Of a stretch of DNA of 35,542 nucleotides, positions 20,522 to 28,593 are shown one piece after another. Under the pieces are notes generated by a model. That model was not told where the DNA came from. It did not search any database and worked only from the letters and a program-made list of their open reading frames with translations. This DNA comes from a virus. The translations under genes and the position numbers were made by a program. Each line of letters begins with the position of its first letter. The first letter of the stretch is position 1. The DNA is taken from positions 1 through 35,542 of IMG/VR virus record IMGVR_UViG_3300042292_000305. One strand, given 5' to 3'.

Positions 20522-20563
20522 ATATTAAACCCTATATTCTAAAAAGTAAACATATTTTTTTAC
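20522..20563 (-). promoter_or_regulatory. Minus-strand early promoter with operator-like repeat (site A)
   Basis: On the minus strand TTTACT (20545-20550), a 17-base spacer and TAATAT (20522-20527) form a promoter. An A-rich stretch lies upstream, and GTAAA/TTTAC arms form an imperfect palindrome at 20546-20563. Its 17-base GTAAACATATTTTTTTA recurs exactly at 25231-25247. Its 18-base TATATTCTAAAAAGTAAA recurs inverted at 27453-27470. Confidence 0.6.
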
Positions 20564-25277: not shown

Positions 25278-25454
25278 ATGACACCAGACGAAATCAAAGA
25301 AAAATTACGCGTGATGAACATTAGCAAAGTAGCGGAAGAATCGGGCGTGTCGCGCAATATGCTGCATCGATTTTTGCACGATCAGTTTAAAAAAGAAAAA
25401 ACACCTTATGAAAAAACCGTTGAACGCTTAGCGCAATATTTAGGAAAATTATGA
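25278..25454 (+). CDS. Small HTH regulator (58 aa, Cro/XRE-like)
   Basis: A 58-residue protein beginning MTPDEIKEKLRVMNISKVAE, with a helix-turn-helix in ISKVAEESGVSRNMLHRFLH and a short basic C-terminal helix ending EKTVERLAQYLGKL. AAGGAAA lies seven bases before ATG. It sits beside the divergent promoter region, so it may regulate that promoter and the two related sites. Its stop overlaps the primase start (ATGA). No full CI-type repressor or integrase was seen. Confidence 0.75.
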   Translation: MTPDEIKEKLRVMNISKVAEESGVSRNMLHRFLHDQFKKEKTPYEKTVERLAQYLGKL

Positions 25455-27304
25455 ATGATTTATTAAATGCAATACGCGCTTCAGGCATAAACCCGCCAAC
25501 CCATATAAATCAGCACGGCATTACGCGCTTTGCCACTACAGGCAAAGAGAAATCTGGCTGGGTATCATTATTTATAGACGGCAAAGGCGCATGTTATGGT
25601 GACTGGAAATCGGGCGAGCAACACGTTTGGTTTGCTGATGGCTTTAGAAGTAGCGAAAACGATTACGAACGCGAACAAGCTATTGAGAAAGCCAAAGAAG
25701 AACGGGATTTTGCTTACAGCAACGCAGCGTTTAACGCTCAGGAGCTGTATGCAAAACTCCCACACGCTTTAGATCACGATTATTTGACGCGCAAAAATGT
25801 CAAATCACACGCAGCACTGCGCATTTATGACGGCAAACTCGTTATTCCTGTTTATGGCGTGGGTGGTGAAATCCAGTCGCTTCAATATATTGCCACAGAC
25901 GGCACAAAACGATTTTACACGGGCGGTAAAATGCAGGGCGGTTACTTCACTATTGGTGAGCCGTCCGACATGGTAATCATTGCCGAAGGATTTGCCACCG
26001 CCATGACAATCCACGAAGCCACAGCACAATGTGTTGTGGTTGCGTTTAACGCTGGGAATTTAAAGCCAGTGTGCGACATGGTGCGCAGTCAGTACAAAGG
26101 CAGGGTGATTATATGCGCAGATAACGATGCAAGCGGTGTAGGTATTGAAAAAGCTAATAAATGCGGGGTAGAAGTTATCCACTCGCCCATTGTTGGTGAA
26201 GATTTTAACGACATGGCAAAACGCGCAGGCATATTAGCGGTTGCGGATCTCATTATTGGCAAAAAGCAAAACCTGTTTGTTTCAGTCCATGATTTGATGG
26301 CAAACACCACACGCGCTGATTGGGTAATTAAAAACTTATTAGAACGCGGTTCAAACACGTTATTGTTTGGCGAATCTGGGGCGTGTAAATCGTTGATTGC
26401 CATGGATTGGGCGTTTTGTATTGGCAATGGGATTGCGTGGCACGGTCACAAAACTAAAAAAGGCACGGTGGTGGTCATTGCTGGGGAAGGTCATCGAGGG
26501 CTTGCAATGAGGATGCAAGCTCTCAAACAAAAATACAACATGAATCCTGACAATATTTATTTTAGCACAAAAAGCGTTAATTTGCTCGATACAGACGCGG
26601 TTATGCGTGTAGGCAGTATATTAGATGGGTTAGGCTTAGACGAGCCTCCATGCGCCATTTTCATCGACACAATGCACAGAAATATGCACGGTGACGAGAA
26701 TAGCAGCGAGGATATGGCGATATTCTTGGCTAACATGGAATTATTGGCTAAGAAATATAATGCAGCTATTTCACCAGTGCATCATAGCGGTCATGGCGAT
26801 AAGGGCAGGGCGCGTGGAAGTAGTGCAATTAAAGCAGGCATGGACGCAGAATTTTGCATGACAAAGAAATCTAAAATGGAAGTCACTTTGTCATGTACTA
26901 AATCGAAAGATTTTAGCGCAGGCAGTAACATGGATTTTAGAATAAAAGTGGTTGATCTTGAGGGCGATTGTTTTTATGACGAGGATGAAGGAAAACAGAT
27001 TGAAGGCGTTTATTTAGAATATGTTGGTCAAGCTGAAGATAAAATAGAGTTATCCAAAACCGAGCAACAGACTTTTGACGGCATGAAAAAAGCCATTGAA
27101 ATGACAAAAATACAAGGTGAAAAATATACATTGCTTGGAAAAGACCATTTTGTACTAACACTTACACAATGGAAACCATTTGCTTATGAAATGTACACGG
27201 ATAAAAATGCTGGCAGACACAAAGGCAACTTTGATAGTAGTGTTAAATCTTTGTTAAATCAAGAAGTTATAGGCAATGATGGCGATTATTACTGGGTTAA
27301 ATAA
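25451..27304 (+). CDS. Toprim primase-helicase
   Basis: A 617-residue replicative protein. A Toprim domain is visible at about residues 175-225 (IIAEGFATAMT, then VIICADNDASG), with the catalytic glutamate and D-x-D. A RepA/AAA_25 ATPase follows, with Walker A GESGACKS (about 307-314), Walker B AIFIDTMHRNMHGD and a VHHSGHGDKGRARGSSAIKA motif. It should unwind DNA and make primers. The C-terminal ~100 residues are less conserved. It is followed by a repeat-rich non-coding region that could be the replication origin. Confidence 0.9.
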   Translation: MNDLLNAIRASGINPPTHINQHGITRFATTGKEKSGWVSLFIDGKGACYGDWKSGEQHVWFADGFRSSENDYEREQAIEKAKEERDFAYSNAAFNAQELYAKLPHALDHDYLTRKNVKSHAALRIYDGKLVIPVYGVGGEIQSLQYIATDGTKRFYTGGKMQGGYFTIGEPSDMVIIAEGFATAMTIHEATAQCVVVAFNAGNLKPVCDMVRSQYKGRVIICADNDASGVGIEKANKCGVEVIHSPIVGEDFNDMAKRAGILAVADLIIGKKQNLFVSVHDLMANTTRADWVIKNLLERGSNTLLFGESGACKSLIAMDWAFCIGNGIAWHGHKTKKGTVVVIAGEGHRGLAMRMQALKQKYNMNPDNIYFSTKSVNLLDTDAVMRVGSILDGLGLDEPPCAIFIDTMHRNMHGDENSSEDMAIFLANMELLAKKYNAAISPVHHSGHGDKGRARGSSAIKAGMDAEFCMTKKSKMEVTLSCTKSKDFSAGSNMDFRIKVVDLEGDCFYDEDEGKQIEGVYLEYVGQAEDKIELSKTEQQTFDGMKKAIEMTKIQGEKYTLLGKDHFVLTLTQWKPFAYEMYTDKNAGRHKGNFDSSVKSLLNQEVIGNDGDYYWVK

Positions 27305-27307
27305 CTA

Positions 27308-27369
27308 TGTACATTTATGTACATTGTATAAAAATGTACAATGTATAAAAGTGATCCAAAAAATGTACA
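27308..27369 (+). repeat. Four TGTACA iteron-like repeats
   Basis: TGTACA occurs at 27308-27313, 27318-27323, 27335-27340 and 27364-27369; the first, second and fourth are in ATGTACAT. Spacing between starts is 10, 17 and 29 bases. This is dense for a 6-base palindrome and recalls origin iterons or a regulator site. Confidence 0.6.
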
Positions 27370-27373
27370 TACA

Positions 27374-27400
27374 TATACACACCCCTTTAGGGGTGTATAT
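27374..27400 (+). repeat. ACACCCC-TTTA-GGGGTGT palindrome
   Basis: A 7-bp perfect stem with a 4-base loop, extending by three more pairs past one mismatch into flanking TATA-rich sequence. No T-run follows, so it is not a standard terminator. Confidence 0.55.
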
Positions 27401-27413
27401 GGATGTATATGGA
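27394..27413 (+). repeat. Tandem direct repeat TGTATATGGA
   Basis: Two perfect adjacent copies of the 10-mer at 27394-27403 and 27404-27413. The first overlaps the right arm of the CCCC palindrome. A helical-turn spacing suits protein binding. Confidence 0.6.
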
Positions 27414-27442
27414 TTTGTATATTTAGCTGTATGAATAATAAA

Positions 27443-27472
27443 TTTACATTTTTTTACTTTTTAGAATATAAT
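27443..27472 (+). promoter_or_regulatory. Plus-strand promoter with operator-like repeat (site C)
   Basis: TTTACA (27443-27448), an 18-base spacer and a perfect TATAAT (27467-27472). The 18-base TTTACTTTTTAGAATATA at 27453-27470 is the inverted copy of the sequence at site A. Start is predicted at about 27479, exactly where the 15-bp inverted repeat begins. Confidence 0.65.
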
Positions 27473-27478
27473 CTTTTT

Positions 27479-27548
27479 AACCAACCAACCCAGAAATCAC
27501 TTTATGGCGATTTATCAATAACTGGGTTGGTTGGTTTTAACCATAAAG
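27479..27548 (+). ncRNA. Structured leader or small RNA with interleaved inverted repeats
   Basis: AACCAACCAACCCAG (27479-27493) is perfectly complementary to CTGGGTTGGTTGGTT (27522-27536). CTTTATGG (27500-27507), inside that loop, is perfectly complementary to CCATAAAG (27541-27548), outside it. The two stems are interleaved; the 4-base linker is too short to span the 15-bp stem in a classic pseudoknot, so alternative folds or a DNA cruciform are likelier. Transcript existence is inferred from site C. Confidence 0.4.
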
Positions 27549-27683
27549 AATTAAACCCTAACGCGTGTCCTCTCGCACGAAAAAAAAACGGGAGCAGTTT
27601 TACCGCAGCATTTTCTGATAATTTTGCAATGCGGGGTTATGGTTTAATTACTTGATGGTTAACTTAAACAGGAACAAAATTGC

Positions 27684-28367
27684 ATGAAGCGAAAAGAGAA
27701 ACGATCAGCTAAGTTTGCACCACAAAATGATTATTATGAGCCGAAAATTAAACCGGTACGCGCATTAAACAAAACACAGCAGCAATATCTGAATCAAATA
27801 CGCGCTAATGTCATCACATTTGCCATTGGTAGCGCGGGAACGGGTAAAACGTATATAGCGGCAGGGGTAGCTGCTCAAATGCTGTCAGAGGGCATTATTG
27901 ACACAATTATTATGACGCGACCCAACGTTGAAGCTGGTCGTGGTTTTGGTTATTTGCCGGGTGAATTATCTGAAAAATATGCGCCATACATGGAGCCTTT
28001 GCTAGATGTGCTTAATGAGCGACTTGGGAAATCTCACACAGAATATTTGCTAAAACGTGGATCTATTCAGTTTAAACCGCTAGAGTTTATGCGCGGCAAA
28101 ACGTTTGCACGGTGCTTTTATATTTTAGATGAAGCGCAAAACTGCACACCACAGCAGATGAAGTTGTTTTTAACGCGCATTGGTGAGGATTGCAAAGTCA
28201 TTATTGATGGTGATATTGAGCAGAAAGATATTACTGGCATGAGCGGCTTACAAGACGCGGTTAATAGATTACAAAATGTGGATAAAATAGGCATGGTTGA
28301 GTTTACAGTTGATGATGTTGTACGCTCAGGCATGTGTAAAGAAATATTGATGGCTTATAGGGATTAG
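27684..28367 (+). CDS. PhoH-like ATPase
   Basis: A 227-residue P-loop protein. Walker A is GSAGTGKT (residues 49-56), followed by TRPNVEAGRGFGYLPGELSE and Walker B in YILDEAQNCTP, then the GDIEQKDITGMSGL motif. These are PhoH family hallmarks. The N-terminal ~25 residues are basic. PhoH proteins are frequent in phages; an RNA-related ATPase role is suspected but not settled. It follows the repeat-rich region by about 135 bases. Confidence 0.92.
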   Translation: MKRKEKRSAKFAPQNDYYEPKIKPVRALNKTQQQYLNQIRANVITFAIGSAGTGKTYIAAGVAAQMLSEGIIDTIIMTRPNVEAGRGFGYLPGELSEKYAPYMEPLLDVLNERLGKSHTEYLLKRGSIQFKPLEFMRGKTFARCFYILDEAQNCTPQQMKLFLTRIGEDCKVIIDGDIEQKDITGMSGLQDAVNRLQNVDKIGMVEFTVDDVVRSGMCKEILMAYRD

Positions 28368-28368
28368 A

Positions 28369-28593
28369 ATGAAAAATACACTGACAGATTTAAACAATCA
28401 TTTATTTGCTCAAATGGAAAGATTGAGCGAAGAATCATTAAGTGTTGAGCAACTGGCTTTTGAAGCAGAACGCTCAAAAAGTTTGACCATTATTGCGCGT
28501 ACAATCGTGGATAATGCGCGTTTAGTCCTTGATGCACAGACACGCATTAATGATATTCCAGAACGTAAAGAGCTACCTGCTATTTTAAAATGA
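28369..28593 (+). CDS. Hypothetical phage protein (74 aa)
   Basis: A helical protein (LTDLNNHLFAQMERLSEESL, then EAERSKSLTIIARTIVDNAR). The D-L-N-N-H-L-F-x-Q-x-E-R-L start and the A-R-x-I-V-D-N-A-R-L segment match a small protein seen before HNH or terminase genes in many phages. Function unknown. It overlaps the next start by four bases. Confidence 0.65.
   Translation: MKNTLTDLNNHLFAQMERLSEESLSVEQLAFEAERSKSLTIIARTIVDNARLVLDAQTRINDIPERKELPAILK

Follow-up and report, generated by a model that had tools for sequence, protein, structure and literature searches.

The window analysed here is the whole of a 35.5-kb virus record (35,542 nucleotides; IMGVR_UViG_3300042292_000305). The element of interest sits between a primase/helicase-like gene with Toprim and AAA_25 domains (25451-27304) and phoH, and 3' of phoH the same strand carries genes for an HNH endonuclease, a ParB-like protein, a cytosine methylase, and the terminase (Table 1). 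It was compared with relatives among metagenomic contigs, namely 68 loci from protein scans and 67 viral contigs in which a pattern scan found the hairpin (HP) described below. An open reading frame at 27341-27655 was considered as protein coding and rejected, its frame being broken in relatives by module inserts and loop indels; a PHROG search of it gave no match. Separately, an iteron-like array of short palindromic units lies 3' of the primase gene (27301-27435); relatives write this array with other units (TGTACA, GTATAC, GTACGC, and TCCC/GGGA), which change in concert. The array is a candidate origin.

Table 1. Features of the element and its surroundings (window coordinates)
Feature	Position	Strand	Basis or remark
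Sigma-70-type promoter, TTTACA-18-TATAAT	27443-27472	+	11/12 match, best of region; kept in relatives
HP domain, a hairpin whose outer stem has 15 bp; core AAATCAC-loop-GGCGATTTATCAATAA	27479-27536	+	Covariation, strand bias, pattern scan
5' arm of HP (A); first base is the predicted start of the transcript	27479-27493	+	
B, terminal-loop segment CTTTATGG	27500-27507	+	Loop length and sequence vary; pairing with 27541-27548 holds in close relatives only
HP 3' arm (A')	27522-27536	+	
Module insertion junction	27536-27537	+	Gap of 1-3 nt in 37 loci; modules spanning 228-458 nt in 46 (loci overlap, so contigs are fewer)
PK module, closed by long helix P1 (27537-27558/27641-27662, extension 27549-27562/27636-27649)	27537-27662	+	Repeat finder; conserved stretch
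H-type pseudoknot: S1 27564-27567/27576-27579, S2 27570-27575/27589-27594, A-rich loop 27580-27588	27564-27594	+	Covariation
P4 hairpin of PK module (CCGCAGCA / TGC-AA-TGCGG)	27603-27634	+	Minimum free energy fold
phoH Shine-Dalgarno, AGGA	27670-27673	+	
phoH, next gene downstream in this phage	27684-28367	+	Pfam PhoH, E 1.9e-72; not constant in relatives

An initial annotation had proposed a promoter whose start falls on a perfect stem, and its promoter coordinates proved exact. The site (TTTACA at 27443-27448, TATAAT at 27467-27472) is the top promoter-like site within 25.1-28.4 kb, an interval in which the total of such sites equals the shuffle mean, i.e., shows no excess. It agrees with sigma-70 promoters (-35 and -10 hexamers, 16-18 nt spacing, and 6-7 nt to the start) in having a spacer of 18 nt and a predicted start 7 nt past the -10 box, on the stem's first base. 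The same promoter precedes the minimal form of the element in a Methylococcales genome (L266), and another class of relatives has TTGACA-17-TATTAT or TATCAT, where the stem again begins after a gap of 6 nt from the -10 box. The geometry relative to the stem is thus identical in both classes, and two unrelated promoters give the same stem base as the start. An 18-bp promoter segment, TTTACTTTTTAGAATATA, has a second exact copy on the minus strand at 20533-20550, followed by GGGTTTAAT and upstream of a minus-strand ORF (20465-20235); two copies in the window compare with 0.23 expected.

The arms of the stem are, base for base as first described, 15 nt long, 100% complementary, and 28 nt apart, both in the sequence and by the repeat finder. 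They form the sole perfect repeat in the window with arms of at least 14 nt and a spacer of up to 40 nt, and the repeat is not due to chance, because a first-order Markov control yields 0.17 repeats per window even for arms of at least 12 nt. Double compensatory changes occur in 12 of the 13 HP stem base pairs (18 distinct arm pairs; 0 of 500 shuffles), and double-change cells number 61 versus 21.6 in shuffles. On an ungapped alignment of the arms, 92% of cells were paired and the covariation score was 0.717, versus 0.208 for shuffled and at most 0.23 for slid controls; the core set was found partly via sequence anchors and filtered for the stem, so the paired percentages are upper values; this selection weighs less on double changes and on strand bias. 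The initial annotation had made preserved pairing in relatives part of its test of the element, and for this stem the covariation answers it. In addition, the HP core AAATCAC-loop-GGCGATTTATCAATRA sits on differing stems (CCAACCAACCCAG, CCACAAGCCAG, GAGGATGGG, AGCACATCACAG, and CTTCATCAGCGCAG), and in L266 the same 4-nt repeat unit is missing from both arms together.

Wobbles in the nine inner pairs, read on the plus strand, comprise 16 G-U versus 1 A-C; these cells are not independent events, and the G-U cases are spread over several stem families and positions. Selection therefore appears to act on plus-strand RNA rather than on a DNA palindrome, and the pattern of change marks the 15-bp stem as a hairpin of RNA. 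HP is followed by only three or four T residues in the window and most relatives and by T7 in L266, so that its service as an intrinsic terminator is a minor possibility. In some other phages HP stands directly 3' of an upstream stop codon, and in one phage group it precedes a gene for a single-stranded DNA-binding protein, with its modules beyond that gene. HP is therefore a portable module that, by these arrangements, need not begin the RNA.

Beside HP, the PK module is the second stretch conserved among relatives. Pairing of its closing helix P1 is kept with wholly different sequence in four loci (L138, L171, L197, and L185). Inside P1 the pseudoknot reads GCGUG-UC-CUCUCG-CACG-A9-CGGGAG, and both of its interleaved stems vary with compensatory change: S1 as CGUG/CACG, GGGU/ACCC, and GGUG/CACC, and S2 as CUCUCG/CGGGAG, CUCCUG/CAGGAG, CUCAUA/UAUGAG, CUCAUG/CAUGAG, CUCCAG/CUGGAG, CUCACA/UGUGAG, and CUCGC/GCGAG. 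Among 17 distinct cores, double changes were seen in 6 of 11 pairs, with a covariation score of 0.43 versus 0.15 in shuffles. S2 was paired in 99% of cells in the same cores, which were gathered by the fixed anchors GUCCUC, A-run, GAG, and CAGU only and are nearly all fully paired; of the six pairs in S2, three are dictated by the anchors themselves and carry no information. The P4 position is occupied by other hairpins in relatives. Folding of 27479-27663 gave a z score of -7.4, and the reverse strand scores equally, so that this measure does not tell the strands apart.

The window thus carries a two-module minimal form (about 185 nt) with an empty slot between HP and PK. In relatives with a filled slot, the inserts are built of recurring modules: a linker hairpin, tRNA-like domains, and other domains. 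The linker hairpin GACAGCUUGGAAAGACAAGC occurs in exact sequence in at least 120 viral stretches and nine genome contigs, with variant stems (GCCG/CGGC and ACUCG/CGAGU) around a nearly fixed loop. One insert module (L008) scores above the Rfam cut-off for tRNA, and the tRNA-likeness of the inserts as a whole is suggested by a few such modules and by reading of the sequences; the stems of these modules run past the acceptor stem. A further insert domain presents the loop UGAAAGUAC on covarying stems and is found also in Salmonella phage SA002. Many of the inserts end in a terminator-like hairpin before the PK module, and in several the closing hairpin is followed by T6-T7.

Several of these parts were also encountered elsewhere. 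In 11 of 137 distinct contexts, which include phages as well as genome contigs from several bacterial phyla, the 20-nt linker hairpin GACAGCTTGGAAAGACAAGC precedes an ordinary tRNA gene by 4-6 nt (loci L157, L240, L245, L137, L144, L145, L170, L174, L156, and L214), and we found no description of it in the literature as a tRNA-leader element. In a 322-kb phage the linker hairpin occurs four times, three copies being part of tandem repeats of 78 nt, with a terminator-like hairpin at the end (L135:4203-4511), and in a 62-kb viral contig a tmRNA gene adjoins the linker hairpin and tRNA-like sequence (L175:485-847). The UGAAAGUAC module that Salmonella phage vB_SalM_SA002 has in common with methanotroph phages is unannotated there (L248:2990-3100), surrounded by degenerate tRNA-like sequence and near tRNA-Tyr.

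The initial annotation had offered a small RNA or leader as one option, and stem covariation and promoter geometry suggest that a transcribed, structured element was the right one. It had also raised the possibility of a cruciform or part of an origin. A DNA element of this kind, or a protein-binding site, would fit the adjoining primase gene and palindrome array and the almost invariant core sequence GGCGATTTATCAAT, but we consider it improbable, since the wobble bias in the stem and the start-site geometry indicate RNA and since in other phages HP is found apart from the primase gene. A two-state RNA switch between stem A and an interleaved 8-bp stem B (27500-27507 with 27541-27548) had been suggested as well. 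The second pair is present as described, 8 nt long and 100% complementary, and the 4-nt linker would make the two stems mutually exclusive; its size is within chance, several 8-mers being listed by the repeat finder in the same 1.2 kb. Pairing of B with B' is 8/8 in most close relatives if G-U is counted, by way of one-sided G-U changes, yet falls to 4/8 in four loci with longer loops (L266, L088, L091, and L092), even though HP and PK in L266 join directly as in the window. Compensatory change keeps stem A and not stem B, which has no double change, and the stem energies are -26.3 and -7.6 kcal/mol, respectively. B' has a stronger partner in 27641-27662 as part of helix P1 and lies more than 200 nt from B in 46 loci. 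The switch was therefore not borne out and appears highly improbable.

In the window the PK module ends 8 nt 5' of the phoH Shine-Dalgarno, as a leader would, and this counts against the reading favored below. A leader controlling phoH had been another option of the initial annotation. Such a gene-specific riboswitch or attenuator is nonetheless quite improbable, because the downstream gene varies among relatives: the same RNA can be followed by phoH, by the gene for a 74-aa protein, by a PAPS-reductase-like gene, by methylase genes, or by the terminase small subunit, and at least six unrelated genes follow it in all, with phoH further down or absent. The main rival is a leader of a late or accessory operon, put-like (HK022) or otherwise antiterminating, in which HP and PK would bind RNA polymerase or a phage factor and allow read-through of terminators in the long downstream block. 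Such a role would suit an RNA that heads a block leading to the terminase genes, an HP directly before the terminase small subunit in other phages, and the terminator-like hairpins between modules and PK in long forms. In L138-type phages, however, the PK module is itself followed by a terminator-like hairpin with T7, and the RNA is located among replication genes; we regard antitermination as unlikely overall.

We favor, as the probable reading, that HP forms the 5'-terminal domain of a structured phage RNA that is built from modules and would serve as a scaffold or decoy, probably in phages of Methylococcales. The structure of this HP-PK RNA is well supported: module order, stems, pseudoknot, strand, promoter geometry, and the slot with its inserts are all read from the compared sequences. 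Its function we infer as follows. Transcription from the element's own sigma-70-type promoter would begin at the first base of the stem, so that the transcript opens with a hairpin that may seal its 5' end and mark its start, and would continue along the PK module, with its closing helix, H-type pseudoknot, and side hairpin, into the phoH-headed block and on to the terminase genes. Relatives fill the slot between HP and PK with further RNA modules, often ended by a terminator-like hairpin before PK. The folded domains may act as a stable scaffold or as a decoy that carries tRNA-like arms, and variable downstream cargo genes would be expressed via read-through.

The host assignment draws on cellular genomes. 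Among 251 genomes from the order to which a Methylococcaceae MAG belongs, two contain HP at an E value of about 1e-14. The Methylococcales genome G142 has the window's two-module arrangement, together with the same promoter type and the same downstream 74-aa gene (28369-28593 in the window), and HP is present in G001. Because a Methylococcales genome holds the same arrangement, the phages carrying this RNA probably infect methanotrophs. Against annotated phages, blastn with the element region gave chance matches only, and a BLAST search with the PK module found none.

In H-type pseudoknots such as those of preQ1-I riboswitches, frameshift sites, and tmRNA, two stems stack on each other and loop 3 is rich in A. 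The PK pseudoknot has this topology, but unlike those examples it carries conserved GUCCUC and GAG(U)CAGU within a long closing helix and has no Rfam match. The put antitermination RNAs of HK022 are structured RNAs near the start of a phage operon; the HP-PK RNA resembles them in being structured and in its position, and differs in that in some phages it ends in a terminator-like hairpin. As in phage tRNA arrays, the inserts of relatives carry tRNA-like modules and the linker hairpin found elsewhere before ordinary phage tRNAs, whereas the window has neither linker nor tRNA and the module stems extend past the acceptor stem. Neither ARAGORN nor Rfam found a tRNA or tmRNA in the window element. 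Closest in general character are GOLLD and ROOL, likewise long structured noncoding RNAs of phages and prophages, frequently located close to tRNA islands; GOLLD combines a conserved 3' part with a 5' part that varies, and its linker sometimes contains a tRNA (PMC12286853). The HP-PK RNA differs in its module slot between HP and PK and its far shorter minimal form. The GOLLD and ROOL covariance models gave no match at the gathering score in the window and 31 relative loci, nor at E values up to 5 in L008 (470-1200) or the window (27300-27700). No Rfam family matches the window element, and the long forms of relatives match none besides the tRNA model. In a limited search of open-access papers about tRNA arrays of phages, ornate RNAs, and phages of methanotrophs, we found no description of this RNA.

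More tentatively, it is conceivable that phages draw on a common stock of interchangeable RNA domains (HP, PK, the GACA-linker hairpin, tRNA-like domains, and the UGAAAGUAC domain) from which custom noncoding RNAs are assembled, as is done with protein domains, and that these RNAs mimic tRNA or act as decoys, countering host translation or defenses that cut tRNA. This possibility touches on two recurrences: phages from other bacterial phyla carry the same linker immediately before ordinary tRNAs, and a jumbo phage of Salmonella has the UGAAAGUAC domain. The number of large structured RNAs known from phages is small. With a compact minimal form, probable methanotroph hosts, strong covariation, and a natural series of inserts, the HP-PK RNA could allow the roles of its modules to be compared across existing forms. 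If the linker hairpin before real tRNAs has the same role, tRNA arrays and ornate phage RNAs would be linked.
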